Origin: Pseudoroseomonas ludipueritiae
Lineage (GTDB): Bacteria > Pseudomonadota > Alphaproteobacteria > Acetobacterales > Acetobacteraceae
DNA length: 37,888 nucleotides
Direction: 5' to 3'
NCBI RefSeq assembly: GCF_014490445.1
Contig: NZ_JACTUZ010000027.1
Span: forward strand, 1 to 37,888
Positions within the stretch are counted from its first letter, which is position 1. The number at the start of each line of letters is the position of its first letter. The notes under the pieces are model-generated. The model was not told the origin of the DNA. It made no database searches and saw nothing but the letters and a program-made list of their open reading frames with translations. Made by a program: the position numbers and the translations under genes. Positions 1,207 through 18,346 of this stretch are shown here, piece by piece.

Positions 1207-1210
1207 CCGA

Positions 1211-2587: not shown

Positions 2588-2637
2588 GCCCCTCGCGGTT
2601 CCGGCCCGACATCGCGTTTGCCGGAGCGATCCGAACC

Positions 2638-3798: not shown

Positions 3799-4070
3799 GG
3801 GCAGGCCAGGGGCGCTGCCCCTGGACCCCGCTGGGGTGACAGTGTCACCCCAGACCCCGCCATCTGTTTTGTTCCGGTGGCACGGTGGTTCCGCCGGAGG
3901 TCCATGACCTCTGGCGACTGCGGCTTCAATCGGCGTGGCTTTTTTTCGACGCAGGCGGCTGGCGCCATGCCGCGTCCTTTAGGCCCAATCTCAAGCTGGC
4001 AGCGGGGTCCGGGGTGGACTTTCCACCCCGGCGGGAGTGTCCAGAGAGGGCGGAGCCCTCTGTGGCCCCG
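3799..4070. repeat. Intergenic five-hairpin repeat, copy A
   Basis: Begins at the base after the aminotransferase stop codon. Five stem-loops in order: outer left 3806-3824 (8-bp stem), inner left 3831-3853 (perfect 10-bp stem, GGGGTGAC type), centre 3892-3916 (11-bp stem with one G-T), inner right 4009-4031 (perfect 10-bp stem, GGGGTGGA type), outer right 4041-4065 (11-bp stem, one mismatch). The two ends are also reverse complements of each other, forming terminal inverted repeats of about 60-70 bp. Related copies lie at 14286-14536 and 18067-18346. It separates two convergent transcription units, so it could work as a bidirectional terminator. It contains no credible gene; short open frames in it are shadows of the repeat. 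Confidence 0.85.
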
Positions 4071-4080
4071 GCAGCCTCCT

Positions 4081-4260
4081 TCACTCCCCGATCAGCAGCA
4101 GCCCACCCCAGGACAGGCCGAAGACCAGCATGGCCACGGCGGCGGTGGCCAGCCCAGGGGCGCGGGCGGCGCGGTCCAGCATCAGCCCCACCACGCCGGC
4201 CAGCAGCGAGAAGAGCAGGACCGCGGCGACCAGCCCATTCAGGGCTGGCAGGCTCATCAT
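4081..4260 (-). CDS. Small two-helix membrane protein, unknown function
   Basis: 59 residues, starting at the ATG at 4260 (or the next ATG at 4257) and ending TGA at 4081-4083. The sequence begins MMSLPALNGLVAAVLLFSLL and shows two hydrophobic helices (about 8-27 and 41-57) separated by the basic, Pro-containing linker LDRAARAPG. Its first ATG overlaps the stop codon of the upstream 78-residue frame as ATGA, a typical sign of translational coupling. That overlap, the high-GC third positions and the coherent two-helix pattern argue that it is real. No family recognised. The last base lies about 11 bp from repeat copy A, which would sit at its 3' end. Confidence 0.6.
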   Translation of the reverse strand: MMSLPALNGLVAAVLLFSLLAGVVGLMLDRAARAPGLATAAVAMLVFGLSWGGLLLIGE

Positions 4261-4493
4261 GATGCCTCGCGCCGGCGCCGGCGGCGGATGGCGGCGCGTT
4301 CCGGCGCCGAGAGCGGGGCGTAGAGCGCCCGGGCATTGCGCAGCCAGGCGGTGCGGCTGCCGGGGGCGCCGCTTTCATAGCGGGGCGCTTCCGGCGGTTG
4401 CGCCGCGCTGGCTTCCCGGCCGGCGGGCGGGAAGGCGGCCAACCAGCCCATGAGGGCCAGGGGCCAGAGGCGGTTGGGCGGGGTATCCGTCAT
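4257..4493 (-). CDS. Small protein with N-terminal hydrophobic segment and Arg-rich tail, unknown function
   Basis: 78 residues beginning MTDTPPNRLWPLALMGWLAA. The hydrophobic stretch at about 9-25, followed by ASA-AQPPEAP, could be a signal peptide with cleavage near residue 30, or a single membrane anchor. The rest is polar and ends in a run of six arginines followed by EAS. Its stop overlaps the start of the downstream two-helix protein (ATGA at 4257-4260), so the two form a micro-operon. It is divergent from hrcA, with about 207 bp between. No family is recognised and I assign no function. Confidence 0.55.
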   Translation of the reverse strand: MTDTPPNRLWPLALMGWLAAFPPAGREASAAQPPEAPRYESGAPGSRTAWLRNARALYAPLSAPERAAIRRRRRREAS

Positions 4494-4641
4494 GCGACCT
4501 CATCTCCGTCCAATGGGAAAGGCCAAGCTCGCGGCCTTCTTGACCATATCTTTGCAACCCTATCATGGCGACGATGTGACAAGGTGTTGCAGCCTGTGCC
4601 TCATAAACTGCACGAAGCGGTGAAAGCCGGCCGCGCCTGTG

Positions 4642-4669
4642 CTTGACGCAGCGCAACCCGATGCCTAGC
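4642..4669 (+). promoter_or_regulatory. Candidate promoter of hrcA, possibly RpoH (heat-shock sigma) type
   Basis: CTTGAC at 4642-4647 is followed after 16 bp by CCTAGC at 4664-4669. CTTGAC is a good -35 for both housekeeping and heat-shock sigma factors. A -10 beginning CCTA resembles the alphaproteobacterial RpoH pattern more than TATAAT. The predicted start would lie about 25 bases before the hrcA TTG codon. The surrounding 4500-4700 stretch is clearly more AT-rich than the coding DNA. No CIRCE inverted repeat (TTAGCACTC and its complement) is visible here. Confidence 0.45.
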
Positions 4670-4700
4670 GTTTTCCTTTGTTCACAAGGGGTTTCACAGG

Positions 4701-5804
4701 TTGGGCCCGCCACCATTCTCCCGCGCCGGCTATTCCCGAGGCACGCTGCCGCGTGACCTGGGCGGCACCGCGATGCTGCCCGGGCTGGACAGCCGTGGCG
4801 CCGCCATCCTGCGGCAGGTGGTGGAACTCTATGTGGAGACCGGGGAGCCCGTGGGCTCCCGCACCCTCTCCCGCAGGCTGCCGCAGGCGCTTTCTCCCGC
4901 CACCATCCGCAATGCCATGGCGGACCTTGAGGAAGCCGGGCTGCTCTACGCGCCGCATACCTCGGCCGGGCGGCTGCCGACCGAGCAGGGGCTGCGGCTC
5001 TTCGTGGACGGGCTGCTGGAATTCGGCGACCTGACGGAAACCGAGCGCGAGGCCATCGCCATGCGCTGCGCCGCCTCGGGCCGGTCCTATGAGGAGACGC
5101 TGTCGGAAGCGGGGCAGATGCTCTCCGGCCTGGCCGGGGCCGCCGGGCTGGTGGTGGCGCCCAAGACCGAGGCGCCGATCAAGCATATCGAATTCGTGGC
5201 GCTTTCCCCCGGGCGGGCGCTGGTGGTGCTGGTCAATGCCCATGGGCAGGTGGAGAACCGCGTCATCGAGGTGCCGGCGGGCCTGCCGCCTTCCGCCTTC
5301 ACCCAGGCCTCCAACTTCCTCAATGCCCGCCTGTCCGGCCGCACGCTGGAAGAAACCCGCTCGCTGGTGGAACAGGAGATCGAGGCCAACCGCACCGCGC
5401 TGGACGCGCTGAGCCAGCAGGTCATCCAGGCCGGGCTGGCCACCTGGTCCGGCGGTGGCGGCGGCTCGCTGATCCTGCGCGGCCAGGCCAAGCTGCTGGA
5501 GAACCTGGACCAGCTCGCCCGCGTGCAGGAGATCCAGGCGCTGTTCGAGCGGCTGGAAGCGCAGGAGACCATGCTGCGGCTGCTGGAACTCTCCCAGCGC
5601 GGGCAGGGGGTGCAGATCTTCATCGGCGCTGAGAGCGGGCTCTTCGACAGCGCCGGGCTCTCCATGGTGGTCGCCCCCTTCCGCAACGGGGAGGAGCGGA
5701 TCGTCGGTGCCATCGGCGTCATCGGCCCGACGCGCATCAACTACGGCCGGGTGATCCCGGTGGTGGACTATACGGCGCAGGTGATCGGCCGCATTCTCGG
5801 CTGA
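4701..5804 (+). CDS. hrcA: Heat-inducible transcription repressor HrcA
   Basis: 367 residues. HrcA is a dimeric repressor that binds CIRCE operators in front of groESL and other chaperone genes and is kept active by GroEL. The N-terminal winged-helix region is recognisable: LRQVVELYVETGEPVGSRTL, then SPATIRNAMADLEEAGLL and HTSAGRLPTEQGLR. The GAF-like and dimerisation regions follow, with the family C-terminus GVIGPTRINYGRVIPVVDY. I take TTG 4701 as start because AAGGGG at 4686-4691 is a well-spaced ribosome site. ATG 4773 is the alternative and would remove 24 residues without touching the domain. grpE, its common neighbour, is not next; a GST-like gene follows after 17 bp. Confidence 0.95.
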   Translation: MGPPPFSRAGYSRGTLPRDLGGTAMLPGLDSRGAAILRQVVELYVETGEPVGSRTLSRRLPQALSPATIRNAMADLEEAGLLYAPHTSAGRLPTEQGLRLFVDGLLEFGDLTETEREAIAMRCAASGRSYEETLSEAGQMLSGLAGAAGLVVAPKTEAPIKHIEFVALSPGRALVVLVNAHGQVENRVIEVPAGLPPSAFTQASNFLNARLSGRTLEETRSLVEQEIEANRTALDALSQQVIQAGLATWSGGGGGSLILRGQAKLLENLDQLARVQEIQALFERLEAQETMLRLLELSQRGQGVQIFIGAESGLFDSAGLSMVVAPFRNGEERIVGAIGVIGPTRINYGRVIPVVDYTAQVIGRILG

Positions 5805-5821
5805 ACAACCGAGGATCATCC

Positions 5822-6454
5822 ATGGCCCTGACGATCTATGGCGTGCTGCGCTCGCGCGCCTCGCGCCCCATCTGGCTGGCGAAGGAACTGGGGCTGGAAT
5901 ACCGCCACGTTCCCGTCATCCAGGGCTACCGCCTGCCGGACCCGGCGGCGCCCGATGCGCCGCTGAACACCACCTCCCCCGCCTTCCGCGCCATCAACCC
6001 GAACGGGCATGTCCCCTCGGTCGAGGATGACGGGCTGGTGCTGCACGAGAGCATGGCCATCACGCTCCATCTCGCCCGCAAGCATGGCGGCCCGCTGGCG
6101 CCGCGCGATGCGACGGAGGAAGCCCTGGCCACCATGTGGAGCTTCTGGGCCGTGACCTCGATCGAGGAACAGGCGCTCTCGACCCGCGCGGGGCCCGAGG
6201 CCGTGGCGCGGGAACTGCCCGGGCTGCACCGCTATTTCGCCATCCTGGCCGATGCGCTGCGCGCCGGCGGCGGCTGGCTGGTGGGCGGGCGCTTCACGGT
6301 GGCCGACCTGAACGTGGCGGAAGTGGTGCGCTACGCCCAGGGCATGCCGGAACTCTTCGCGGCCCAGCCGGCGGTGCGGGACTGGCTCGCCGCCTGCCAG
6401 GCCCGCCCGGCCTTCCAGGCCATGTGGGCGGAGCGGGAGGCGGAGCCGGCCTGA
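5822..6454 (+). CDS. Glutathione S-transferase family protein
   Basis: 210 residues, the standard GST length. The N-terminal thioredoxin-like half starts with the strand LTIYGVLRSRASRP; the Ser/Arg-containing loop sits where the catalytic residue normally lies. It then has INPNGHVPSVEDDGLVLHES, the glutathione-binding PxVEDxxxxxxES pattern. The C-terminal helical half contains WLVGGRFTVADLNVAEV, the conserved N-capping and hydrophobic staple region. The start lies 17 bp after the hrcA stop, so it is probably cotranscribed with hrcA. That would link a detoxification enzyme to the heat-shock repressor; this is inference. The substrate is unknown. It converges with the next gene, with only 19 bp between the stops. 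Confidence 0.9.
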   Translation: MALTIYGVLRSRASRPIWLAKELGLEYRHVPVIQGYRLPDPAAPDAPLNTTSPAFRAINPNGHVPSVEDDGLVLHESMAITLHLARKHGGPLAPRDATEEALATMWSFWAVTSIEEQALSTRAGPEAVARELPGLHRYFAILADALRAGGGWLVGGRFTVADLNVAEVVRYAQGMPELFAAQPAVRDWLAACQARPAFQAMWAEREAEPA

Positions 6455-6473
6455 GCCGCCTCCGCCCGCCGCC

Positions 6474-8060
6474 TCAGGGCACCGGGCGGACGATCACCAG
6501 CGAGAAGCTGGCCGCCGCGCCGCCCGAGCCGGTGGCGCGCAGATAGGCCGGGCGCGGCTGCGGCCCGGCCAGCAGGCGGGAGCCGAGGCCGCCATCGGCA
6601 TCGTCATTCTCCTCCAGCACCTGGCCCTCGGCATCCAGCAGCTCCAGCACCGTGTCGGCGCCGTTCTGCAGGTCGAAGGTCAGGGCCTGCACGGGGCGGC
6701 CGTCATGCGGCAGGGCGAAGACCGCCGCCTCCCCGGCTTCCAGCTGCACCGCCACGGCCTCGCCGGGCAGCAGGGTCGGGCGGCGCGCCGCTTCCTCGAT
6801 GCTGGCGGCGCCGCCGGGGCTGGCCGTGCCGCCCACCGGGCGCAGCACCAGGTCGAAGCTGCCCGGGGCGCCGTTCAGCGAGGCGGCGCGCACAAAGGCA
6901 GCCCGCCCGCCCGCGCTGGCCGTGGCGATCCGGGAGGCGAGATCACTGCCGCCGTCGTCATCCTCCTGCAGCACCTCGCCATCCTGGTCCAGCAGCGCCA
7001 GCACGGTGTCGGTGCCGCTCGCCAGGTTGCGGGTCTGGATCACCAGCGCCTGGTCCGGTGGCAGGGCGAAGATGGCCTGCTGCCGCCGGCGCAGCGTGAT
7101 GGAGCGCGTGCCCTCCGCCGGCAGCGGGCCCTGCTGCCGGGCCTGCTCCAGCGTAGTGGGGAAATCGGGCGGCGGGGGCGGCTCCTCCTGCCGCAGCACC
7201 AGGTCGAAGCTGCCGGGCGTATTGCCCAGGATGGACGCGCGCAGGAAGAGCTGGCCCGCCGGCGCGCCGTCCAGCGGCAGGGCCGAGGCATTGCCGCCGC
7301 CGCCGTCGTCATCCTCGTCCAGCTGCTGGCCATTGGCATCCAGCAGGGTCAGCACCGTGTCGGTCTCGCCCTGCAGCTTCAGCGTCCGGGCCACCAGCCT
7401 GCCGCGCTCGGCCGGCAGGGCGTAATAGGCGCTCTGGCCCCGGCGCAGGCGCAGGGTCACTTCCTGCCCCGCCGCCAGCGGCGGCTGGGCGGCGGCCGCC
7501 ACCAGGCTGATGGGGAAATCCGGCGGCGGGCGGGGCGCGTCGCGCACCAGCACCAGCTCGAAGGTGCCGCCCTGGTCTTCCAGCGTGCCGGCGCGCAGCA
7601 GGGTGGCGCCAAGCTCGGGCCCGACCTCGATGCTGGAGGACAGTTCCTCGCTGCCGCCATCGTCGTCCTGGGCCAGGACGCGGGACTGGGCATCCAGCAT
7701 CTCCAGCACCGTGTCGGTGCTGCGCGCCAGCTTGCGGGTGGAGACGGTGTAGAAGCCGCCCGCTTCCGGCGCGACGCGGAAGAAGGCGGATTGCCGCGGC
7801 CGCAGCCGCAGGCAGACCGGCTCATCCGGCAGCAGGGGCGGCACGGTGGCGGCATCCGCCGCCCGCAGCGCGATGGGGCCGGTGCGGCCGCCGGGACAGG
7901 CGGCGGATTCGCCGGAAGGGCGCTGTTTCGGCATGCTGGCGCCGGGCGCCGGCTGGGCCAGGGCCGCCCCGGCCGGCAGCGCCAGCCCGAGGGCCAGCGC
8001 CATGGCCCATCGCGATACCCCGTGATGCCGCATCCACCTGGCCTGCCTGTTGCGTGCCAT
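6474..8060 (-). CDS. Secreted protein of four PPC-like (pre-peptidase C-terminal) repeats
   Basis: 528 residues with a signal peptide (hydrophobic 18-35, cleavage likely after ALA-35). The mature part consists of four repeats at about 62-173, 183-290, 300-407 and 419-526. Each has a strand ending DTVL at 116, 234, 351 and 469 (a spacing of 117-118), then LLDA-G-like and an acidic turn (QDDDGG, DEDDDGG, QEDDDGG, EENDDADGG), then a GSFDLVL-type closing strand. The DTVLxLLDxxGxxLxxDDDGG core is that of the bacterial PPC beta-sandwich domain, usually a tail on secreted peptidases. Here no catalytic domain is present. Repeats 1-2 and 2-3 are joined by PPPDFP linkers. It is monocistronic. Binding to surface polymers or cations is a guess from the acidic loops. 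Confidence 0.8.
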   Translation of the reverse strand: MARNRQARWMRHHGVSRWAMALALGLALPAGAALAQPAPGASMPKQRPSGESAACPGGRTGPIALRAADAATVPPLLPDEPVCLRLRPRQSAFFRVAPEAGGFYTVSTRKLARSTDTVLEMLDAQSRVLAQDDDGGSEELSSSIEVGPELGATLLRAGTLEDQGGTFELVLVRDAPRPPPDFPISLVAAAAQPPLAAGQEVTLRLRRGQSAYYALPAERGRLVARTLKLQGETDTVLTLLDANGQQLDEDDDGGGGNASALPLDGAPAGQLFLRASILGNTPGSFDLVLRQEEPPPPPDFPTTLEQARQQGPLPAEGTRSITLRRRQQAIFALPPDQALVIQTRNLASGTDTVLALLDQDGEVLQEDDDGGSDLASRIATASAGGRAAFVRAASLNGAPGSFDLVLRPVGGTASPGGAASIEEAARRPTLLPGEAVAVQLEAGEAAVFALPHDGRPVQALTFDLQNGADTVLELLDAEGQVLEENDDADGGLGSRLLAGPQPRPAYLRATGSGGAAASFSLVIVRPVP

Positions 8061-8132
8061 GACGTTTCCCCGCTGGATCGGCCTTTCAGCTAGACCTTTG
8101 CCAAGACGCCGGCAAGCCGGAAGGGCAGGGTG

Positions 8133-9197
8133 CTAGTCCAGCACCGCCGCATCCACCCCCAGCCGCCCTGCCCAGTCCCGCAGATTCCGCGCGACCTTCT
8201 CCGGCACCTCCAGCCCTTGTCGCTCCGCCTGCGCGATCAGGCGGCTGGCCTGCTCGCCCGGCAGGCGCACCGGGCGCTCCGGATCGACCGGGGCATTGGC
8301 GTGGCAGGCTTCCGCCAGGAAATCCATCTGCGCCACGAAGGCCTCGCGCCCGGCGAAGGCCTCGGGGTCCACCAGTTGCAGGTAGACGCTGGCGCCCCAG
8401 CGGCCCGGCGCATCGCGGCGGCCATGGCCCGCGAGGCCCTGGGTCAGCGCCTCCACCATGAGGGCGAGGCCAAAGCCCTTGTGGCCGGCTTCCTCGCCGC
8501 CCAGCAGCATCAGGCTGCCGCCGCCATGCTCCATGGCCCTGGGGTCGCGGGTGGGGCGGCCGGCGGCATCCAGCAGCCAGGGATGCTCGAACTGCTCCCC
8601 GGCGGCGGCCTTCTGCCGCGTCATGGAGACGGTGGTGATGGAGGCGGAGATATCCACCAGCACCGGCGCCGCCCCGGTGGGAAAGCCCACCGCGAAGGGA
8701 TTGGGGCTGAACAGCGCCTCCCTCCCCCCGAAGGGCGCCACGATCTTGCTGTGCGGGCCGGAGGAAGCCAGCATCACGAACAGCCCCCGGTCCGTCGCCT
8801 GCTTCGCCAGGGCGGCGAGGCAGCCGATATGGTGGCTGCGGCGCATCGCCAGCGTGAAGGTGCCGTGTTCCCGCAGCCGCCCGAAGCCCAGCGCCATGGC
8901 CTGTTCCACCAGCCAGAGGCCGGGGCGGTAGCCGCCGTCCCAGACCACGGTGGAGCCGGTGTCGCGCAGCACCTCCGGCTGGCCGCTGGTGGCCATGCCG
9001 CCCTGGGCCACTTCCTCCAGGTAGTTGCCGCATTGCGCCAGGCCGTGCGTGCGGCGGCCCATCATGTCCGTCAGCACCAGGATGCGGCCGATGCTTTCGG
9101 CCTTCTCCCGCTCCATCCCGGCGGCCTCGAACAAGGCCGCCGCGAAGCCGGAGAGCGCGGCGGGGGTCCGGCGCAGGGCCACGGGTGCCGTGCTCAT
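8133..9197 (-). CDS. Ldh family (malate/L-lactate/ureidoglycolate type) NAD(P)-dependent oxidoreductase
   Basis: 354 residues, typical for the YlbC/MDH2 family, which is structurally unrelated to classic malate dehydrogenase and oxidises 2-hydroxyacids or reduces 2-ketoacids and cyclic imines. The catalytic histidine motif is present as RRTHGLAQ (about 53-60), followed by the family patterns ALFSPNPFAVGFPTG and GHKGFGLALMVEALT near the C-terminal third. Its ATG overlaps the stop of the upstream Bug-type binding protein (ATGA, 9194-9197), so the two are translationally coupled. Context suggests that it acts on a carboxylate imported with the help of that protein. The exact substrate cannot be read from sequence. 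Confidence 0.9.
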   Translation of the reverse strand: MSTAPVALRRTPAALSGFAAALFEAAGMEREKAESIGRILVLTDMMGRRTHGLAQCGNYLEEVAQGGMATSGQPEVLRDTGSTVVWDGGYRPGLWLVEQAMALGFGRLREHGTFTLAMRRSHHIGCLAALAKQATDRGLFVMLASSGPHSKIVAPFGGREALFSPNPFAVGFPTGAAPVLVDISASITTVSMTRQKAAAGEQFEHPWLLDAAGRPTRDPRAMEHGGGSLMLLGGEEAGHKGFGLALMVEALTQGLAGHGRRDAPGRWGASVYLQLVDPEAFAGREAFVAQMDFLAEACHANAPVDPERPVRLPGEQASRLIAQAERQGLEVPEKVARNLRDWAGRLGVDAAVLD

Positions 9198-10165
9198 TCG
9201 GGCTTGATGTTGTGCTTGCCGACTACTCCGCCGAATTCGGTGGTGCTGCTGGCCAGCCAGGCGCGGAAGGCTTCCGGCCCCTCGGTGCGCGGCTCGCCGC
9301 CCAGTTCGGCCAGCTTGGCGGCGATGGCGGGCTGGGCCACCGCCTCGCGCAGCGCCACCTCCAGCCGCTGCACCAGCGGGCGGGGGGTATTGCCCTGCAC
9401 CATCAGCCCCTGCCAGGTGCCGGCATCGGACATCGGCCAGCCGACCTCGCGGAAGGTGGGCACATCCGGCAGCGCCGCCAGGCGCTTCGGGCCGGAAACC
9501 GCGATGCCACGCATCTGGCCGCCGGTGACATAGCTCTGCGTGGCGGTGGCGCCGTTGATGATCATGTCGGCCTCGCCCGAGGCCACCGCCAGCAGCGCCG
9601 GCGCGCCGCCGCGATAGGGTACATGCGTGATCTCCCCGCCCAGGGCGGAGCCGACCTCGACCGAGGTGAGATGCGTCAGGCTGCCGACACCGGCATTGGC
9701 GATATTGAGGCCCCTGGACTTGGCGTAGCCGGCCAGTTCCGCCGCATTCTTCGCCGGCAGGGCGTTCTTCGTCGCGGCCAGATAGGGCGCGTAGATGATC
9801 ATGGAGACCGGCGCGAGATCCTTCTGCACATCGAAGGGCATGCGCGGGAACAGCGCCGGGTTGATGGCCAGCGTGGAGACATCCATCAGCAGCAGCGTAT
9901 GGCCGTCCGGCGCGGACTTGGCCACGAAATCGGCGCCGATATTGCCGGCGGCGCCCGTGCGGTTCTCCACCACCACGGATTGGCCGACCGCCTTGGTCAG
10001 CTCCGGCCCCAGCAGGCGGGCCAGGATGTCGCTGGTGCCGCCCGGCGCATTGGGCACGATCAGGCGCAGCGGGTGGTCGAAGCCCTGCGCCCGAAGCGCG
10101 GGGGCGGCCAGCGGCGACAGGGCCGTGGCGGCGAGCGTGGCACGCAGCAGGCTACGGCGATCCAT
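9194..10165 (-). CDS. Tripartite tricarboxylate transporter substrate-binding protein (Bug family)
   Basis: 323 residues. Bug proteins are periplasmic Venus-flytrap receptors for carboxylates or related small molecules. The N-terminus MDRRSLLRATLAATALSPLA with cleavage near ALRAQ is a signal peptide, possibly Tat-type (DRRSLL). The mature protein starts with the family strand HPLRLIVPNAPGGTSDILAR and has VVENRTGAAGNIGADFVAKS, both characteristic. No TctA/TctB membrane subunits are adjacent, which is usual for the many orphan Bug proteins. It is the first gene of a two-gene operon with the Ldh oxidoreductase and is divergent from a LysR gene 116 bp away, its probable regulator. Confidence 0.93.
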   Translation of the reverse strand: MDRRSLLRATLAATALSPLAAPALRAQGFDHPLRLIVPNAPGGTSDILARLLGPELTKAVGQSVVVENRTGAAGNIGADFVAKSAPDGHTLLLMDVSTLAINPALFPRMPFDVQKDLAPVSMIIYAPYLAATKNALPAKNAAELAGYAKSRGLNIANAGVGSLTHLTSVEVGSALGGEITHVPYRGGAPALLAVASGEADMIINGATATQSYVTGGQMRGIAVSGPKRLAALPDVPTFREVGWPMSDAGTWQGLMVQGNTPRPLVQRLEVALREAVAQPAIAAKLAELGGEPRTEGPEAFRAWLASSTTEFGGVVGKHNIKPE

Positions 10166-10229
10166 GGTTCGTTCTCCCGTGCGGGCCCGGTTGCGGCGGG
10201 CCTTCTGCTTTCCGCTCTAGGCGGTCGTA

Positions 10230-10268: not shown

Positions 10269-10281
10269 GGAATCTGGATCA

Positions 10282-11214
10282 ATGTTTGCCTTCACCCAGC
10301 TTCGCTGCTTCGTGGCCGTGGCGGAGGAACTGCATTTCCACCGCGCCGCCGCCCGGCTGAACATGACCCAGCCGCCGCTGAGCCGGCAGATCCAGTTGCT
10401 GGAACACACGCTGGGCGTGGCGCTGCTGCTGCGCGGCAACCGCGCCGTGCGGCTGACCCCGGCGGGCGAGGCCTTCCTGCGCGATGCCCGCCGCATGCTG
10501 CGGCTGGCCGAGCGCGCCACGCTGCATGCCCGCCGCATCGCCCAGGGGCAGAGCGGGCGGATCACCATCGGCTTCACCGCCGCCTCCGGCTACGGCGTGC
10601 TGCCGCGGCTGGTGGGGCTGATCCGCGCCCGGCTGCCGGAGGTGGAACTGGAACTGCGGGAGATGGTCTCGCTGGAGCAGCTTGAGGCACTCCAGGCCGG
10701 GCGGATCGACCTGGCGCTGCTGCGCCCCATGGCCCGCCGCCCCGGCATCCGCACCGCCCGGCTGCAGCGGGAGCCGCTGCTGCTGGCCCTGCCGCAAGCC
10801 CACCCGCTGCTGGCGCAGGAAGGCTGGGGCATCGCCGAACTGGCGGAGGAACCGCTGATCACCTACCCCCCGGCGGAAGGCCGCTATTTGCACGATCTGG
10901 TGATGGGCCTGTTCCAGATCTCCGGCGCGGCGCCGGCGCGGGTGCAGTTCATCAGCCAGACGCATTCCATCCTGGCCCTGGTCGGCGCGGGCCTCGGCAT
11001 CGCCGTGGTGCCGGAAGCCGCCGGGCTGCTGCGGCCGGACGGCGTGCTGCTGCGCCCCCTGCCGGGGCCGGTGGCGCCGGCGGCGGAACTGGTGCTGGCC
11101 TGGCGGGAAGATGGGGAAAACCCTGCCGCGCCCGCCGTGCTGGCCATGCTGCGGCGGGAATGGGCGGTGCTGTGCCAGGGGTTGCCGGGGGCGGGGGAAA
11201 GGCCGGGGGAATGA
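10282..11214 (+). CDS. LysR-family transcriptional regulator
   Basis: 310 residues. The N-terminal winged helix is clear: FTQLRCFVAVAEELHFHRAA, then LNMTQPPLSRQIQLLEHTLG and LTPAGEAFL. The effector-binding domain follows, starting at about residue 92 (GRITIGFTAASGYGVLPRLV). It is divergent from the Bug/Ldh operon, the usual arrangement for a regulator and its target. The co-inducer is unknown, probably the carboxylate involved. The 3' end is odd: the last codons (GERPGE and TGA at 11212-11214) lie inside the left arm of a palindromic element at 11195-11330. The C-terminus was apparently reshaped by that element. Confidence 0.93.
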   Translation: MFAFTQLRCFVAVAEELHFHRAAARLNMTQPPLSRQIQLLEHTLGVALLLRGNRAVRLTPAGEAFLRDARRMLRLAERATLHARRIAQGQSGRITIGFTAASGYGVLPRLVGLIRARLPEVELELREMVSLEQLEALQAGRIDLALLRPMARRPGIRTARLQREPLLLALPQAHPLLAQEGWGIAELAEEPLITYPPAEGRYLHDLVMGLFQISGAAPARVQFISQTHSILALVGAGLGIAVVPEAAGLLRPDGVLLRPLPGPVAPAAELVLAWREDGENPAAPAVLAMLRREWAVLCQGLPGAGERPGE

Positions 11215-11330
11215 ATTCCCCCGGGCCCCTTCTTCTTTTTTCGAGTTTGGGGTGCGGCCGCAGGCCCACCCGTGAACCTGTGGAAAAAAGATGGGGGTCT
11301 GGGGGAATTCATTCCCCCGGCCTTCTCCGC
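11195..11330. repeat. Palindromic element with ~45-bp imperfect inverted arms
   Basis: The left arm at about 11197-11241 reads GGCCGGGGGAATGAATTCCC and then runs into C-rich sequence and a T-run. The right arm at about 11283-11327 is its reverse complement with a few mismatches, starting with an A-run. The short core between contains a GTTTGGGG stretch and GCGGCCGC. Each arm also carries its own small palindrome (GGGGGAATGAATTCCCCC type). The arms place T6 and A6 runs at the inside of the fold. The structure would give a strong hairpin at the 3' end of the lysR message. It is not related in sequence to repeat copies A-C. Confidence 0.75.
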
Positions 11331-11374
11331 CCCGGGAATAGCAGACCCGTGCCCCCGTGACCTGCGGGGGGAAG

Positions 11375-11387: not shown

Positions 11388-11430
11388 AGCCCGAACAAAG
11401 GCCCCACCCTTGGGAGGGAGACTGACCCCC

Positions 11431-12408
11431 ATGAGCGATACCGCCGACACCACCGTCCCCGTCACCGTGCTGACCGGCTATCTCGGCGCCGGCAAGACCA
11501 CGCTGCTGAACCGCATCCTCTCCGAGGAGCATGGCAAGAAATACGCCGTGGTCATCAACGAGTTCGGTGAGCTCGGCGTGGACAACGACCTCGTCATCGA
11601 TGCCGACGAGGAAGTCTTCGAGATGAACAACGGCTGCATCTGCTGCACCGTGCGCGGCGACCTCGTGCGCATCCTGGGCAACCTGATGAAGCGTCGCCAG
11701 AAGTTCGACGGCATCATCGTCGAGACCACCGGCCTGGCCGACCCGGCGCCCGTGGCCCAGACCTTCTACATGGACGAGGACGTCAAGCGCGCCACGCATC
11801 TCGACGCCATCGTCACGCTGGTGGATGCCAAGAACCTCGCCGCCCGGCTGGAGGACAGCAAGGAGGCGGCCAGCCAGATCGCCTTCGCCGACATCGTGGT
11901 CCTGAACAAGATGGACCTGGTGACGGAGGAGGAGGCCGCCGAGGTCGAGCGCCGCATCCGCGCCATCAACCCCTATGCCGAGATCCGCCGCGCCACCAAG
12001 TCCGAGGTGCCGATCGAGGCCGTGATGGGCCGCGAGGCCTTCAAGCTGGACCGCATCCTGGAGCGCGAGCCCGAGTTCCTGTCCGGCGAGGACAACCATT
12101 CCCACAACGAGGACATCATGAGCCTGTCCTTCGAGGTGTCGGAGCCGCTGGACGAGAACAAGTTCAATGCCTGGATCGGCGAGCTGCTGCAAAGCAAGGG
12201 CCAGGACCTGCTGCGCACCAAGGGCGTGCTGGCCTTCAAGGACGAGGACCGCCGCTTCGCCTTCCAGGCCGTGCACATGATCGCGGATGGCGACTACATC
12301 GGCCCCTGGCCCGAGGGCTCCGCCCGCAAGAGCAAGATCGTCTTCATCGGCCGTGACCTGAACCGCCCGCGCCTGCGCCGCGGCTTCGAGGGCTGTGTGG
12401 CGGCATGA
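11431..12408 (+). CDS. CobW/COG0523-family metal-chaperone GTPase
   Basis: 325 residues. G3E-family GTPases of this type load or traffic metal, often zinc under starvation. Walker A is GYLGAGKT (16-23), the metal-binding CxCC motif is CICC (69-72), and the guanine-specificity motif is NKMD (159-162). A His-containing linker DNHSHNED (221-228) precedes the C-terminal CobW domain. The frame runs open from 11272, but that part is the palindromic element. ATG 11431 has GGGAGGGA at 11412-11419 and gives the normal family N-terminus. The stop overlaps the next gene by ATGA. A Zur-like box lies upstream. Cobalamin synthesis genes are absent, so a zinc role is favoured over cobalt. Confidence 0.92.
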   Translation: MSDTADTTVPVTVLTGYLGAGKTTLLNRILSEEHGKKYAVVINEFGELGVDNDLVIDADEEVFEMNNGCICCTVRGDLVRILGNLMKRRQKFDGIIVETTGLADPAPVAQTFYMDEDVKRATHLDAIVTLVDAKNLAARLEDSKEAASQIAFADIVVLNKMDLVTEEEAAEVERRIRAINPYAEIRRATKSEVPIEAVMGREAFKLDRILEREPEFLSGEDNHSHNEDIMSLSFEVSEPLDENKFNAWIGELLQSKGQDLLRTKGVLAFKDEDRRFAFQAVHMIADGDYIGPWPEGSARKSKIVFIGRDLNRPRLRRGFEGCVAA

Positions 12409-13445
12409 GCGAGACCGTCTCCGACGCCGATTTCCTGCTGACCTCGCGCGGCAAGGGCGACGAGCTCGGCGCCTGGGTGATCGGCGCCGCCTTTTCCCGC
12501 GACGGCAAGGCGGCCGCCTTCGCCCTGGGCGACGGCACCATGCGCATCGCCTCCACCACCGACATCACGGGTGAGTGGAACAAGGTTGAGGTGCATGACG
12601 GCGCCTGCCTTTCCATGGTCCCGGATGTGTCCAGCGGCTTCCTGTCCGGCGGCGATGACGGGCTGGTGGCCCGCGTAGCCAATGACGGCAAGGTGGACGA
12701 GTTCGCCAAGCTCGGCACCATGAAGTGGGTGGACAACGTGGCGGCGCACCCGGACGGGCTGCGCGCCGCCTCAGTCGGCAAGGTGGTGCATCTGTTTGGC
12801 AAGGACGGAACGCTGTTCCGCAAGCTGGAGCACCCGTCCTCCGTCGGCGGCATCGCCTTCGATGCCAAGGGCAAGCGGGTGGCCGTGGCGCATTACAACG
12901 GCGCCAGCCTCTGGTTCGCCAACAGCAAGGATGGCTCCGCCAAGGTTCTGCCTTGGAAGGGCAGCCACCAGGGCGTCTGGTTCAGCCCCGACGGTACCCA
13001 TGTGGTCACCACCATGCAGGAGAATGCCCTGCACGGCTGGCGGCTGGCGGATGCGCAGGACATGCGGATGTCCGGCTATGCCACCAAGATCAAGTCGGTC
13101 TCCTTCACCGGCAAGGGGCGCTGGCTGGCCACGGCGGGGGCCGATTGCATCGTGCTCTGGCCCTTCTTCGCCGGCGGGCCCATGGGCAAGCCGCCGGTGG
13201 AACTGGCGGGCGGCGACGGCGTGCTCTGCACCCAGGTCGCCTGCCACCCGCAGCATGAGGTGGTGGCGGCCGGCTTCGATGACGGGCTGGTGCTGATGGC
13301 CGAGATCGGCTCCGGCAAGGTGGTGCCGGTGGCGGCGCCGGGCCGTGGCGCAATCTCGGCCTTGGCATGGAACCCGGCAGGGACTCAGATCGCTTTCGGC
13401 ACCGAGTCCGGATTCGCCGGGCTGGTCGATCTGTCCAAGAGGTAA
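12405..13445 (+). CDS. WD40 repeat domain-containing protein
   Basis: 346 residues with no signal peptide, so cytoplasmic. Several WD-type blades can be picked out, each with an A-F-S/D-x-x-G-K turn followed by a strand and a short loop, for example AAFSRDGKAAAFALGDGTMR, AFDAKGKRVAVAHYNGASLW, WFSPDGTHVVTTM and AWNPAGTQIAFGTESGFAGL. About seven blades would fill one propeller. The start codon overlaps the cobW stop (ATGA at 12405-12408), so the two are translationally coupled. Together with the Zur-like box this suggests a scaffold or partner for the CobW GTPase. The molecular role is unknown. Confidence 0.85.
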   Translation: MSETVSDADFLLTSRGKGDELGAWVIGAAFSRDGKAAAFALGDGTMRIASTTDITGEWNKVEVHDGACLSMVPDVSSGFLSGGDDGLVARVANDGKVDEFAKLGTMKWVDNVAAHPDGLRAASVGKVVHLFGKDGTLFRKLEHPSSVGGIAFDAKGKRVAVAHYNGASLWFANSKDGSAKVLPWKGSHQGVWFSPDGTHVVTTMQENALHGWRLADAQDMRMSGYATKIKSVSFTGKGRWLATAGADCIVLWPFFAGGPMGKPPVELAGGDGVLCTQVACHPQHEVVAAGFDDGLVLMAEIGSGKVVPVAAPGRGAISALAWNPAGTQIAFGTESGFAGLVDLSKR

Positions 13446-13454
13446 CGCCCCCGC

Positions 13455-14285
13455 ATGAGCATCCCCGTCGAGACCACCCCCCGCCTCGCCATCCCCAAGC
13501 TCGGCCTGGGCACCTTCAAGCTGACCGGCTCCGAAGGGCAGAAGGCGATCGAGCGCGCCATCGGCCTCGGCTACCGGCACCTGGACACGGCCGCGCGCTA
13601 CGAGAACGAGGTGGAGGTCGGTGCCGCCATCAAGGCCGGCGGCGTGCCGCGCGGGGATCTCTTTGTCACCAGCAAGGTCTGGTGGGACAACCTGGAGCCG
13701 GAGCCGCTGCACCGCTCCCTGGAAGGCTCGCTGAACCGCCTGGGCACGGATTACCTGGACCTCTTCCTGATCCATTGGCCGAAGCCCGCCATGGACCTGG
13801 AAGGCGCCGTGAAGGTGCTGAAGGCGGCGCAGGCCAGCGGACTGATCCGCGCCTGGGGCGTCGCCAATTTCCCCGTGGCGCTGATGCGCAAGCTGGAGGA
13901 AATGGGCGAGACCCCGGCGGCGCTGCAGGTGGAATACCACGTGCTGCTCTCCCAGAAGAAGCTGCTCGACTGGTGCCAGCCGCGCCAGATCGTGCTGGAA
14001 GCCTATACGCCGCTGGCCAAGGGCTCCCTGCAGGAAGACCCGGTGCTGAAGGGCATCGGCGCCAAGTACGGTGCCACCGCGACCCAGGTGGCCCTGGCCT
14101 GGCTGCTGCGGCAGCAGGGCGTGGTGCCCATCCCCAAGGCCAGCCGCCAGCAGACGCAGCAGGAAAACCTGGACGCCGTGCCCCTGGCCGCCAAGCTGAC
14201 CGCCGAGGACGTGGCGGCCATCGATGCGCTGCCCAAGGACCAGCGCATGGTGAACCCGGACTTCGCGCCGGCCTGGGATCGCTAA
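13455..14285 (+). CDS. Aldo/keto reductase (2,5-diketo-D-gluconate reductase type)
   Basis: 276 residues, a standard AKR TIM barrel that reduces aldehydes and ketones with NADPH. The catalytic tetrad is complete: D44 and Y49 in LDTAARYEN, K74 in VTSKVW and H107 in LIHWPK. The cofactor-binding tail IPKASRQQTQQENLDA is present near the C-terminus. It starts 9 bp after the WD40 stop and is probably the last gene of the cobW operon, though its tie to metal handling is unclear. It ends directly at repeat copy B. Confidence 0.93.
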   Translation: MSIPVETTPRLAIPKLGLGTFKLTGSEGQKAIERAIGLGYRHLDTAARYENEVEVGAAIKAGGVPRGDLFVTSKVWWDNLEPEPLHRSLEGSLNRLGTDYLDLFLIHWPKPAMDLEGAVKVLKAAQASGLIRAWGVANFPVALMRKLEEMGETPAALQVEYHVLLSQKKLLDWCQPRQIVLEAYTPLAKGSLQEDPVLKGIGAKYGATATQVALAWLLRQQGVVPIPKASRQQTQQENLDAVPLAAKLTAEDVAAIDALPKDQRMVNPDFAPAWDR

Positions 14286-14536
14286 GAGGTTCGGGCCGGG
14301 GCCAGAGGGGGCGCCGCCCCCTCTGGACACCCCCGCTGGGGTGACAGGGTCACCCCAGACCCCGCCGTGAGTAAGCGGCTGGTTCCGCCGAGGGTCCAGG
14401 ACCCTCGGCGACTACGGGTTCAGCCCTTACGGCTTTCTGGTTTTCTTGACGCCGCGCGGTGAAGTGCCACCCAGACTGATGGCGGGGTCCGGGGTGACCC
14501 TGTCACCCTGGCGGGGCCTGGGGCAGCGCCCCAGCC
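14286..14536. repeat. Intergenic five-hairpin repeat, copy B
   Basis: Same family as the elements at 3799-4070 and 18067-18346, filling the space between two convergent genes. Stems: outer left 14302-14326 (perfect 11 bp), inner left 14336-14358 (perfect 10 bp), centre 14386-14410 (perfect 11 bp), inner right 14489-14511 (10 bp with one G-T), outer right 14518-14534 (7 bp). Compared with the other copies the outer modules are exchanged: the long CCAGAGGGGGC-type stem is on the left here and on the right in A and C. The central stem differs from copy C by paired changes that keep it perfect. It is probably a bidirectional transcription terminator. Confidence 0.85.
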
Positions 14537-16312
14537 TTAGGCTTCCACCAGCGCCGCCGGGATCAATTCTCCCGTCGCCCCATCCGCCACACCCAGGTCC
14601 GTGACATGTGGCCCGGCGTTGCAGGCCAGCGATGCGCCCACGATGGCCTTGAAGACCAGATAAGGCGGCTTCCAATCTGCGATCTCGTCGGCGGCCGCCT
14701 TCAAAGCACGGAAGGCTTCCGCCACTTCTTCTACCGGCGCATCGGAGACGAGGCCACAGATCGGCAGCGGCAGCAGCGCTGTCACCGCGCCACCCTGCGC
14801 CACAGCCATGCCGCCGCCCGCCGCGATCACCGCATTGGCGGCGGCGGCGAGGTCTTCGGGGCCGCGGCCGAAGACGCAGAGGTTGTGGGAATCATGCGCC
14901 ACCGTGGTGGCCAGGGCACCGCGCCACCGGCTCCAGCCTTGCAGCACGCCCAGCACGGGGGTGGCGGGCGCCAGGCCGTGGCGGTGGATCACGGCCATCA
15001 GGATGCCGTCCTCCGGCAACTGGGCGATGCCATCCACCACCGGCACCTCGGCTTGGCCCCATTGCGTGAAGCGCGGGTTCACGGCGGTGCGCAGGGTGGC
15101 GCGGGGGCCGGGGGCGCGGATCAGGAAATCCTCCGCCGCCAGGGGCGCCAGCTTCATGGTGTCGCGCAGCGGGCCGGCGGGGTGCTCGGGCGGCAGGGGC
15201 GCGCGCAGGCGCCCGGCCTCGGCCACGTGCTGGCCGGAGGCGAAGACATGCGCGACGCCCAGTGTCTCCAGCCCGTCCAGCAGCATCAGGTCGGCACGGC
15301 GGCCGGGGGCGATCAGGCCGAGGTCGGGGCGGTTGATGCGCGTCGCGGCATGCAGGGTGGCGGCGCGCAGGGCCTGCATCGGCGGCATGCCGTAGCGCAC
15401 CAGCCGGCGCAGCAGGTCGATCATGCCGCCCTTCTCCGCGAGGTCGTCGGGGAAAACATCGTCGGTGCAGAGCACCAGGGTCTGCGGCAGGTGGGGCAGG
15501 GTGGCCAGGGCCTTCACCGCATCCGGCAGCAGGTAGTCGTGGCTGCCGCGCAATTCCACCGTGAAGCCGGCGCGCAGTTTTTCGAGTAGGTCCTCGGCCG
15601 AGACGACCTCGTGGTCCGAGCCGATGCCGGCACTCGCGAAAGCCTGGAGGTCCGGGCCGGTCAGGCTGCGGGCATGGCCGCAGACCAGCTTCTCCGCGTC
15701 GAGGCCGGCGCCGACGATGCCGGCCATGCGGGGGCTGCGGTCCAGCACGCCGCGCATGTCCATGACTTCGGCGACACCCGCGACCTCGGGCCAGGAAAGC
15801 ATTTCCTCGAGTTCGGCCGGGCCGAAATCAGCCCCGGCACGCTCCAGCCCGGGGGCGGAGGGGACGCAGGAAGGCGCCAGCACCAGGGCGCGCAGCGGCA
15901 GACCGCGCATCGCCTCCACCGCCCAGCGCACGCCGGGGAGGCCGGAGACATTGCCCAGCTCATGCGGGTCCCAGCAGACGGTGGTGGTGCCGGCGGGCAC
16001 CACGGCCTCGGCATAGCGGCGCGGCGTCACCATCGAGCTTTCGATGTGCATATGCGCGTCGATCAGCCCAGGGGCGGCGATCAGCCCGGTGGCATCCAGC
16101 ACCGAGGCCGCGTCTGCGCGCGTGCCGGGGGCATGGACACTGGCCACCAGCGGCCCGACCAGCCCGATATCGGCGGGGCGCAATTCCCCGGTGGCCATGT
16201 CGGCCAGGGTGGCGCCGGTGATCAGCACATCGAAGGGCGCCTGGCCGCGGGCGGCGCGCACCGCGCGGTCGCGCAGCGCCCTTTCATGCAGGTCGTGCGG
16301 TTCGCGGGTCAT
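14537..16312 (-). CDS. ade: Adenine deaminase
   Basis: 591 residues, the usual size of Ade, which converts adenine to hypoxanthine plus ammonia in purine salvage. It has the amidohydrolase metal site HMHIESS (87-93) and the family signatures CWDPHELGNV (114-123), CGHARSLTG, GSDHE and CTDDVFPDD, and the C-terminal AdeC-type domain with VAHDSHNLCVFG. The frame is open far upstream, to 17254, but that part crosses the tRNA gene and antisense scoA. ATG 16312 gives the normal N-terminus. It lies about 28 bp downstream of the tRNA terminator on the same strand, so it either reads through from the tRNA promoter or has a promoter within that hairpin region. It converges on copy B. Confidence 0.94.
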   Translation of the reverse strand: MTREPHDLHERALRDRAVRAARGQAPFDVLITGATLADMATGELRPADIGLVGPLVASVHAPGTRADAASVLDATGLIAAPGLIDAHMHIESSMVTPRRYAEAVVPAGTTTVCWDPHELGNVSGLPGVRWAVEAMRGLPLRALVLAPSCVPSAPGLERAGADFGPAELEEMLSWPEVAGVAEVMDMRGVLDRSPRMAGIVGAGLDAEKLVCGHARSLTGPDLQAFASAGIGSDHEVVSAEDLLEKLRAGFTVELRGSHDYLLPDAVKALATLPHLPQTLVLCTDDVFPDDLAEKGGMIDLLRRLVRYGMPPMQALRAATLHAATRINRPDLGLIAPGRRADLMLLDGLETLGVAHVFASGQHVAEAGRLRAPLPPEHPAGPLRDTMKLAPLAAEDFLIRAPGPRATLRTAVNPRFTQWGQAEVPVVDGIAQLPEDGILMAVIHRHGLAPATPVLGVLQGWSRWRGALATTVAHDSHNLCVFGRGPEDLAAAANAVIAAGGGMAVAQGGAVTALLPLPICGLVSDAPVEEVAEAFRALKAAADEIADWKPPYLVFKAIVGASLACNAGPHVTDLGVADGATGELIPAALVEA

Positions 16313-16339
16313 GCGGCGGCCTCCGGAGGGCACAAAACA

Positions 16340-16371
16340 GAACAGGGCGCCCGCTGCCGGGCGCCCTGTTC
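16340..16371 (-). terminator. Rho-independent terminator of tRNA-Ala
   Basis: A perfect 14-bp stem (GAACAGGGCGCCCG and its complement) with the 4-base loop CTGC. On the minus strand it is followed by TGTTTTGTG. It lies 8 bp past the tRNA 3' end and separates the tRNA from ade. Confidence 0.8.
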
Positions 16372-16379
16372 GGGAAAAC

Positions 16380-16455
<76 letters not shown>

Positions 16456-16496
16456 GTAGTCTTTGTAGTCGTTCGCCTCTTTCGAAGCGGTGGCGG

Positions 16497-16525
16497 GGTA
16501 TAACTTCGCCCCAAGGGCCACGCAA
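16497..16525 (-). promoter_or_regulatory. Housekeeping promoter of tRNA-Ala
   Basis: On the minus strand TTGCGT (16525-16520) and TATACC (16502-16497) are separated by exactly 17 bp. The -10 box is about 42 bp before the mature tRNA 5' end. This is the best sigma-70-type promoter match I found in the window. Confidence 0.7.
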
Positions 16526-16639
16526 GCCCCCCCGGCAGAAATCTTTCAGCTGTTTTTCATCGCCACCCCGGCGCCCCTTCCCGGCCCCCGCCACCACCTT
16601 TAGCGTGGTATCCGACCAAGGAGTGAGGGAGCGAACCCC

Positions 16640-17401
16640 ATGCGGAAAGTCTACCCCGATGCGCGCACGGCGCTCGATGGCCTGCTGCGCGACGGCATGC
16701 TGATCCATTCCGGCGGCTTCGGCCTCAGCGGCATTCCCGCCGCGCTGATCGCGGCGATCCGGGATTCGGGCGTGAAGGACCTGACGGTGGTGTCCAACAA
16801 CGCCGGCATCGACGGCGCCGGCCTCGGCCTGCTGCTGGAGACGCGGCAGATCCGCAAGATGATCTCCTCCTATGTGGGCGAGAACGCGACCTTCGCGAAG
16901 CAGTACCTGGCCGGGGAGCTGGAGATCGAGTTCAACCCGCAGGGCACGCTGGCCGAGCGCATCCGCGCCGGCGGCGCCGGCATCCCCGCCTTCTTCACCA
17001 AGACCGGCTACGGCACCGCCGTGGCGGAAGGGAAGGAGACCCGCGAGTTCGACGGCCAGCATTACGTGATGGAGCGCGGCATCTTCGCCGACCTCGCCAT
17101 CATCCATGCCTGGAAGGCCGATACGGAGGGCAACCTCGTCTTCCGCAAGACCGCCCGCAACTTCAACCCGATGATGGCGACGGCCGCCAAGGTGACGGTG
17201 GTGCAGGTGGAGGAGCTGGTGGAGCCCGGCCAGATCGACCCCGACCAGATCCACACCCCCGGCATCTACGTGAAGCGCATCGTCAAGCTGCCCGCCAATT
17301 ACGAGAAGCGGATCGAGCAGCGCACCGTGCGCAAGCGGATCACCGACGCCATCCCGCCCAATGCGAATACCTCGGCCGCCGGCGCCGAGAGCGTGGCTTA
17401 A
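16640..17401 (+). CDS. scoA: 3-oxoacid CoA-transferase subunit A (SCOT alpha)
   Basis: 253 residues. With subunit B it moves CoA between succinyl-CoA and acetoacetate or other 3-oxoacids, in ketone-body and polyhydroxybutyrate breakdown. It has the family start [20 protein letters not shown] and the glycine-rich [10 protein letters not shown], then [16 protein letters not shown] and the CoA-binding region [19 protein letters not shown]. The C-terminus ends with [13 protein letters not shown] at 16623-16626 precedes the ATG. Subunit B starts 14 bp after its stop. It diverges from tRNA-Ala, with the promoters back to back. Confidence 0.95.
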
Positions 17402-17415
17402 GGGGAGACAGAGAC

Positions 17416-18066
17416 ATGGCCTGGACCCGCGACGACATGGCCGCCCGCGCCGCGCGCGAGCTGGAGGACGGCTTCTACGTCAACCTCGGCATCGGCATCC
17501 CGACCCTGGTGGCCAACCACATCCCCGACGGCATCTCGGCGCAGCTGCAATCCGAGAACGGCATGCTTGGCATGGGCCCCTTCCCCTATGAGGGGGACGA
17601 GGACCCGGACCTGATCAATGCCGGCAAGCAGACCGTCACGGCGCTGCCGACCACCTCCTTCTTCGACAGCGCCACCAGCTTCGCCATGATCCGCGGCGGG
17701 CATATCGACATCTCGATCCTGGGCGCCCTGCAGGTGGCCCAGAACGGCGACCTCGCCAACTGGATGATCCCCGGCAAGATGGTGAAGGGCATGGGCGGCG
17801 CCATGGACCTCGTCGCCGGGGTGAAGAAGGTGGTGGTGCTGATGGAGCATACCGCCGGCGGCAAGCCCAAGCTGCTGAAGCAGTGCACCCTGCCGCTGAC
17901 CGGCAAGGCCGTGGTGGACATGGTGGTGACGGAACTGGCCGTCTTCACCATCGACCGCGCCCTGGGGCGGATGACCCTGGTGGAACTGGCGCCGGGCGTC
18001 ACCGAGGAAGAAGTGCGGCAGAAGACTGAGGCCGATTACGAGACGGCGCTGGCCGTGCAGGCCTGA
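17416..18066 (+). CDS. scoB: 3-oxoacid CoA-transferase subunit B (SCOT beta)
   Basis: 216 residues, the partner of the preceding gene. The catalytic glutamate that forms the glutamyl-CoA thioester lies in [10 protein letters not shown] (about 45-54). The N-terminal [19 protein letters not shown] and the C-terminal [17 protein letters not shown] are characteristic of the beta subunit. The start follows GGGGAGA at 17402-17408. The gene ends right at repeat copy C. Confidence 0.95.
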
Positions 18067-18346
18067 GGACAGGCCAGGGGCGCTGCCCCTGGACCCCGCT
18101 GGGGTGACAGTGTCACCCCAGACCCCGCCGTCTATTTGAGGTGGCGGCACGGTTGTTCCGCCGGAGGTCCATGACCTCCGGTGACTGCGGGTTCAGCCTG
18201 CGTGGCCCCGCTTGAATTGACCTGCGGCATAACAGGCGCGGCCCTTCAGCCCTAAGGCTTCTCGCAAAAACTGACAGCGGGGTCCGGGGTGGACTTTCCA
18301 CCCCGGCGGGGGTGTCCAGAGGGGGCGGCGCCCCCTCTGGCCCCGG
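18067..18346. repeat. Intergenic five-hairpin repeat, copy C
   Basis: Begins at the base after the scoB stop. Stems: outer left 18074-18092 (8 bp), inner left 18099-18121 (10 bp), centre 18161-18181 (perfect 9 bp), inner right 18284-18306 (perfect 10 bp), outer right 18316-18340 (perfect 11 bp). The left end closely matches copy A (over the first 55 bases almost identical). The two ends align as inverted repeats of about 60-70 bp. Unlike A and B it lies between two genes in the same direction and therefore would insulate pnp from scoAB. Confidence 0.85.

Follow-up and report, generated by a model that had tools for sequence, protein, structure and literature searches.

Palindromic repeats with two inward-facing halves at gene 3' ends in Pseudoroseomonas, candidate bidirectional transcript-end modules

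The contig NZ_JACTUZ010000027.1 of Pseudoroseomonas ludipueritiae (assembly GCF_014490445.1), analyzed over a stretch of 37,888 bp (hereafter the window), carries three copies of a complex palindromic repeat, the elements A1, A2 and A3 of family A, and one member, B1, of a shorter sister family B (Table 1). Both families are found at many places in the genome, and most copies begin no more than 15 bp from an inward stop codon. At somewhat better than even odds (about 0.55), the elements are bidirectional modules for transcript 3' ends under concerted evolution, akin to bacterial interspersed mosaic elements (BIMEs), Rhizobium-specific intergenic mosaic elements (RIMEs) and the Br-REP1 repeats of Bradyrhizobium. 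Polar T-tracts, inward orientation of the halves, placement at stop codons and conservation of the stems are together best fitted by a 3'-end module, and hairpin sequences that change from species to species, with most of the pairing retained, suggest a gene-end element at work rather than a jumping parasite.

Read inward from the stop codon, a half-element is made up by an outer hairpin with a variable stem, an inner hairpin of the form GGGG-palindrome-CCCC, the motif ACCCCGC and a T-tract. Full copies of family A are about 270 bp long and consist of two such halves, facing inward around a central hairpin. The T-tract of family A begins about 7 nt past ACCCCGC, the frequency of T reaching 83-88% at positions 9-11 after ACCCC; in family B the T-rich tract is longer and comes almost immediately after CCCC. 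The tracts are strand-polar. Runs of four T were found in 57/121 A halves and 24/34 B halves, runs of four A in 2/121 and 0/34, respectively (halves from 98 A and 44 B elements, the motif not being found in their remaining halves).

The orientation of the halves does not vary. In what follows G000 denotes the own genome, and labels such as G001 and G008 its relatives, 17 genomes of the genus having been analyzed, the own included. Elements with two halves recognized by a half-element covariance model, R1, are inward pairs in 13 cases out of 13 in G001 and 38 out of 38 in G008, nine solo halves being found in each genome. The same holds true for all 32 two-half elements in sampled stretches of G001 and G002, which also contain 13 solo halves; the G001 part of this set overlaps the 13 elements just mentioned. 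Two types of halves can be further distinguished, a (TGAC...GTCA) and b (TGG...CCA). Among 83 long A elements from G000, G002 and G001, 48 have at least one unreadable half; of the 35 with both halves readable, 31 are a/b heterodimers (18 in G000, 11 in G002, 2 in G001), four pair a or b with another type, and none is a/a or b/b.

A first-pass annotation of the window had assigned to A1, A2 and A3 one architecture, five hairpins per copy and complementary ends. The common architecture was borne out, the three copies aligning well beyond GC-rich chance, and so was the complementarity: the terminal 80-nt arms, each set against the reverse complement of the other, match at 47/71 (A1), 45/55 (A2) and 49/68 (A3) positions. 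Five hairpins were found by a simple hairpin finder in A1 and A2, six in A3. Element B1, the T-tracts and the placement from stop codon to stop codon are additions to that annotation. The left edge of A1 adjoins the stop codon of the gene 2638-3798 (+), and its right edge ends 8 bp short of the stop codon of an open reading frame (ORF) at 4081-4260 (-). A2 occupies the whole gap separating two convergent stop codons. A3, whose minus-strand T-tract lies at 18266-18270, begins right behind the stop codon of the gene 17416-18066 (+) and is located upstream of pnp. Genes were called by a home-made codon model, which placed none inside A1, A2 or A3; an Rfam scan of the window gave only one tRNA above the gathering score, and no family match for the elements. 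The TGA stop codon of the LysR gene 10282-11214 falls within the left palindrome of B1, which thus supplies the end of the protein.

The BIME-like, perhaps regulatory character and the many copies anticipated by the annotation hold: the repeats are extragenic, mosaic, composed of several palindromes, located at gene 3' ends, and far more numerous than the three copies of the window. When the own genome (5.35 Mb, 394 contigs) was searched by blastn, at least 91 pieces were found with A3, at least 102 with A2 and at least 105 with B1; the pieces overlap and include both arms, and were scored at 40 of 110 (A3), 95 (A2) and 79 (B1) candidate places. Another whole-genome count scored 150 of 7271 and 7987 candidates. 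The nhmmer hits in the own-genome loci examined, once merged, amount to 50 different elements of family A and 27 of family B. Across genomes, a DNA search gave matches in 25/58, the own included. R1 matched 37/118 genomes, all within the own bacterial family, namely 16/17 from the own genus, plus a single genome from each of 21 further genera. G009 is the only one of the 17 genus genomes lacking an R1 match; Infernal filters were strict in this run, and absence in other genomes is no proof. Copy number varies within the genus, 22 R1 elements being found in G001, 47 in G008 and none being matched in G009. No phage record matched the element, and two plasmid records did, both from Pseudoroseomonas cervicalis, over 26% and 22% of A3.

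The placement of the elements is tight. In the own genome 44/48 A copies have their start at most 15 bp from an inward stop codon, and most reside between convergent genes (32/48 convergent, 11 ++, 4 --, 1 -+); 25 of the 32 convergent copies have an inward stop codon within 15 bp on both sides. The same distance holds for the start of 20/23 B copies, 11/23 being convergent. Left out of these counts are four copies at contig edges, two from each family, and two B copies shorter than 60 bp. As a baseline, convergent pairs make up 57/383 neighbours (about 15%) in 20 sampled G001 stretches, and 53/344 and 52/328 neighbours near gidA in stretches of G002 and G001, respectively. Of the 32 full elements in stretches, 18 are flanked on both sides by a stop codon no more than 30 bp away, 12 on one side and 2 on neither. 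A co-directional stop codon lies within 30 bp upstream of 10/13 solo halves, and of 48/64 halves of full elements.

The secondary structure is conserved. The complete A3 element folds with z = -7.0, none of 200 shuffles being equally good, and five A halves of the window fold locally better than shuffles (z from -2.1 to -4.1). In 58 aligned half-elements from the own genome 98.8% of the cells are paired, and 127 cells changed on both sides; shuffles average 45 +/- 8 such cells, and slid partners yield no more than 8. Since related rows inflate such covariation counts, the comparison of orthologous sites weighs more. At 21 orthologous elements of G000 and G002, divergence is 5.9% in paired and 19.9% in unpaired columns, stems thus diverging 3.4-fold more slowly than unpaired bases; restricted to G/C columns, the figures are 5.3% and 15.8%. 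At seven elements shared by G000 and G001 the values are 14.3% and 33.8% (10.6% and 28.1% in G/C columns alone). Double changes exceed the number expected from independence, 18 vs. 3.7 in G002 and 23 vs. 6.5 in G001; in G001 they preserve the pair in 16/23 cases if referred to the G000 structure, in 17/21 if referred to the other. From divergence and pair-keeping counts, stem conservation is clear at close range, compensatory change is clear only at longer range (G001), and mixed at close range (G002).

Elements are found at the same sites in related genomes. In G002, the flanks of which are about 94% identical, 23/23 testable A sites and 6/7 testable B sites of the own genome also carry an element (the stretches examined offered no usable flank for 25 A and 18 B sites, and 4 more lie at contig edges). 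At the seventh B site G002 has just one hairpin with a T run immediately after it, a structure that counts for the 3'-end reading. In the more distant G001, 7/16 testable A sites are shared and nine are empty, six of the latter being gaps shorter than 50 bp; none of three testable B sites is shared. The nine empty sites indicate that the element can be lost, and the differences between G000 and G001 point to gain or loss over longer time scales. The element at the A1 site is common to G007, and its absence in G001 therefore looks like loss. Own-genome loci were chosen because they bear elements; a comparison of G002 and G001 stretches, independent of the own genome, found 9/12 and 10/19 syntenic A sites, and 1/2 and 0/5 B sites, to be shared. 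Sites scored as empty, as well as halves scored as solo, may contain diverged copies below threshold. Thirteen A elements of G008 could be set against own loci, with a bias due to the choice of these loci: 10 face A, 2 face B, and one faces an empty site. Set against G002 and G001 stretches, the G008 A elements fall on occupied sites in 6/7 and 4/5 cases. Element-like sequences with different inner palindromes, yet with pairing kept, reside at the A2 site in G002, G007, G008 and G015; a B element resides at the B1 site in G002 and G008.

The median identity of orthologous A copies is 87.5% to G002 (23 sites) and 75.3% to G001 (7 sites), the lowest values to G002 being 61%, and 68% for A3; A paralogs within the own genome have a median identity of 72.4% (80 pairs). 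At ten sites compared between G000 and the more distant G008, with ten paralogs and ten non-orthologs drawn randomly per site, orthologs are 0.600 identical, non-orthologs 0.592, and G008 paralogs 0.640. Among inner words, TGGAAAGTCCA and TGACAGTGTCA are the most frequent in G000, TGGCTGAGCCA and TGGCAGTGCCA in G008, and the inner palindrome is identical in 2 of 12 orthologous halves readable in both genomes. Such a trace would be expected of concerted evolution, or of elements being replaced repeatedly at the same sites.

Further variation was observed in the make-up of the repeats. The palindrome AACGTATACGTT, flanked by sequences which vary yet remain paired, occurs 10 times at 9 distinct places in the loci examined (L018:1745, L044:1489, L067:268, L093:4298, L127:3394, L151:7128, L169:17571, L170:1591, and L084:15022, which is the same as L171:17022). 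Judged from the flanks, every copy lies in an A- or B-type context, as though the hairpin could be exchanged as a module. In G004 (loci L093 and L094) the sites orthologous to A1, A2 and A3 hold A/B mosaics, B-type ends surrounding an A-like centre.

The elements are unevenly distributed along the chromosome in two relatives. All 22 R1 elements of G001 and 45/47 of G008 reside on that half of the main contig which is closer to gidA, with median distances of 132 kb and 398 kb; in 20,000 uniform simulations neither median was matched by one as small. gidA served as a stand-in for the origin, and GC skew, inspected in G001 only, switches sign near it. Sampling of 400 kb along the G001 contig yielded no A and two B elements. 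In G014, A cores are scattered over three contigs including the main one, on which the listed positions reach 2.87 Mb, gidA being at 3.02 Mb. The origin bias may stem from conserved gene order or from expression.

As a 3'-end module, the element would let each of two convergent mRNAs end in a double hairpin of its own. By slowing or stopping RNA polymerase, and by shielding processed 3' ends against 3'-5' exonucleases, this structure would keep either transcript from running far into the opposite gene. The element would be inherited in place, and recombination between copies (gene conversion) would hold those of one genome similar to one another, with the result that in each lineage the palindromes change in concert at many loci.

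Several observations weigh against this interpretation. Three of the window's halves, the right one of A2 (z = -0.4) and the two of B1 (z = +0.5 and +0.1), fold no better than shuffles, and the complete A3 folds preferentially arm-to-arm. A scan for canonical terminators found them at 8/26 element junctions vs. 4/27 others in G002, and at 2/7 vs. 5/44 in G001; in the window, positions 1-20000 contain 7 terminator-like sites, none in an element, and shuffles give 6.9. The T-tract of family A is offset from the inner hairpin, the motif ACCCCGC and 7 nt being interposed. The alignment of own-genome halves has no more further pair types (13) than shuffles do (13.5); double changes in G002 preserve the pair in 11/18 cases with the G000 structure and in only 6/17 with the G002 structure, and 54 single changes break a pair. 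Some of the empty G001 gaps retain one GC-rich hairpin, others nothing obvious, and the excess of identity among G008 paralogs over orthologs is small. Because terminator scans do not clearly mark out the elements, A3 folds preferentially arm-to-arm and some sites have lost their element, protection of mRNA 3' ends may outweigh termination.

A non-autonomous element of the miniature inverted-repeat transposable element (MITE) kind, inserting at gene 3' ends and moved now or formerly by a transposase in trans, would account for a defined unit of about 270 bp with fixed a/b polarity and terminal inverted repeats without coding capacity, for dozens of similar copies, for genome-specific sequences, and for the A sites empty in G001, most with short gaps. 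Yet the duplications expected of insertion are missing: in 44 A copies the longest word shared by the flanks averages 3.91, vs. 4.01 in mispaired flanks. Palindromes of the repetitive extragenic palindrome (REP) and BIME kind, moved by REP-associated tyrosine transposases (RAYTs), are marked by GTAG (or CGTC) at one palindrome end, by the presence of a RAYT gene and by extragenic placement at gene 3' ends. The elements share the placement. GTAG was found in the terminal 12 nt of 0/44 A copies (its complement in 1/44) and CGTC in 1/44 (complement in none), the ends of whole copies being examined. PF01797 (Y1_Tnp/RAYT), the only transposase family searched for, has no match in the own genome, for which RAYT mobilization was rejected, and is found in one of the 17 genus genomes, G006, in an open frame of 55 aa. 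No longer, autonomous copy was recognized either, each of the gaps of 1.6-2.2 kb at the A2 and A3 sites of G004 and G007 containing one or two called ORFs and more B-like hairpin sequence. Occupation of all testable A sites in G002, better conservation of stems than of the remainder at orthologous sites, and the probable loss of the A1-site element in G001 also disagree with mobility. The MITE-like nature proposed in the first-pass annotation is accordingly left unsupported, and the mobile reading appears rather unlikely.

A role at the DNA level, the elements acting as cruciforms or protein-bound sites which organize the domain around the origin or take up supercoils between convergent genes, would agree with the crowding in the gidA half of G001 and G008, with the nearby flip of the G001 skew, and with species-specific palindromes, which could follow a binding protein. 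It is opposed by the spread of cores in G014, and by the strand-polar T-tracts and inward polarity, which point to RNA; placement at 3' ends requires no DNA role, and this possibility is accounted unlikely. Very improbable is the view that these are plain intrinsic terminators of GC-rich genomes, alike only as GC-rich hairpins. Several of 19 convergent G001 junctions of at least 60 bp do hold one GC-rich hairpin, as judged by eye. However, the central hairpin, the ACCCCGC flank, the a/b heterodimers and some 270 bp of alignable sequence common to 44 aligned copies go beyond such hairpins, and control patterns read backward match 0 or 1 times per genome; plain terminators are refuted as a full explanation. 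Chance GC-rich similarity is ruled out by copy number, backward control patterns, alignment and covariation. A bolder and quite unlikely idea is that the inner palindromes are sites for one putative RNA- or DNA-binding protein marking gene ends in the origin half. A shift in its specificity would then be followed by dozens of sites through gene conversion with compensatory changes, giving each lineage a palindrome 'dialect' at orthologous sites.

Among known systems, and as far as the accessible parts of the cited accounts go, the nearest published relative in kind is Br-REP1 of Bradyrhizobium japonicum, which is alphaproteobacterial and was first seen in overlapping 3'-UTRs (untranslated regions) of convergent genes; it has three palindromes and about 200 sites, palindrome abundance varies between species, and complementary small RNAs have been suggested (PMC5082802). 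Its central consensus, CCGGAATCTCGAGATTCCGG, differs from the elements here when compared by eye, it forms three stem-loops, and inward a/b halves, T-tracts, covariation and origin bias are not reported in the portion of the account available (PMC5082802). BIME and REP repeats are extragenic and palindromic, with proposed roles in termination, mRNA stability and supercoiling (PMC3733652); the elements here differ in lacking an end tag and a RAYT gene, and in being fixed heterodimers of about 270 bp. RIME and the AB/C motifs of Sinorhizobium are alphaproteobacterial intergenic mosaics of palindromic repeats with dozens of copies and a conserved secondary structure (PMC2573895); the likeness is by description only, family A being seen solely in the own genome's bacterial family. 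In Neisseria and Pasteurellaceae, paired DNA-uptake sequences form terminator hairpins from a repeated word and are enriched between tail-to-tail genes; these words are about 9-11 nt long, generally in 1,000 copies or more (PMC1852404), whereas tens of copies of a 270-bp unit are found here. Nothing relevant was found, in the accessible portion of the literature, on Roseomonas repeats, on concerted evolution of REPs or on origin bias, and the portion dealing with known systems describes neither an a/b heterodimer, nor palindrome dialects at orthologous sites, nor an origin bias. The repeat family of Roseomonas/Pseudoroseomonas thus looks like an undescribed one. Shared sites that bear different yet paired palindromes in several species amount to a natural experiment: they could tell whether bacterial extragenic palindromes are parasitic or serve as functional gene ends, and in what way dozens of dispersed copies co-evolve. 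The origin bias is a testable link from gene-end structures to chromosome position.

Table 1. Repeat elements of the window and the genes flanking them
Feature	Coordinates	Strand	Details
Element A1	3799..4072	+	hairpins 3806-3824, 3831-3853, 3892-3916, 4009-4031, 4041-4065
A1 internal parts	3854-3860; 3867-3870	+	ACCCCGC; T-tract
Element A2	14286..14540 (stop to stop 14286-14536)	+	hairpins 14302-14326, 14336-14358, 14386-14410, 14489-14511, 14518-14534
Element A3	18067..18350	+	hairpins 18074-18092, 18099-18121, 18125-18147, 18159-18183, 18284-18306, 18316-18340
Element B1 (sister family B)	11190..11333	+	two inward halves, palindrome GGGGGAATGAATTCCCCC, T-rich tract; left palindrome 11203-11224
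DegT/DnrJ/EryC1 aminotransferase, flanking gene	2638..3798	+	Pfam PF01041
LysR regulator, flanking gene	10282..11214	+	Pfam PF03466/PF00126
Aldo/keto reductase, flanking gene	13455..14285	+	Pfam PF00248
Adenine deaminase-like, flanking gene	14537..17254 (codon model: 14537-16312)	-	Pfam PF13382/PF01979
CoA-transferase subunit, flanking gene	17416..18066	+	Pfam PF01144

The leader of pnp (18665-20911, +), about 300 nt long (window positions 18351-18664), matches 7 further genomes of the genus at 78-96% identity, the match spanning only about 75 bp in G001 and G003. Six aligned leaders have in common a long, near-invariant hairpin with little covariation (3/53 pairs), and no Rfam family matched the leader in the window scan. 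The leader may be autoregulatory, like that of pnp in E. coli. Two other repeats of different kinds were noticed in the window: three tandem copies spaced 96 bp at positions 35825-36153, and about four repeats spaced 351/354 bp in an ORF of 509 aa at 6474-8003 (-).

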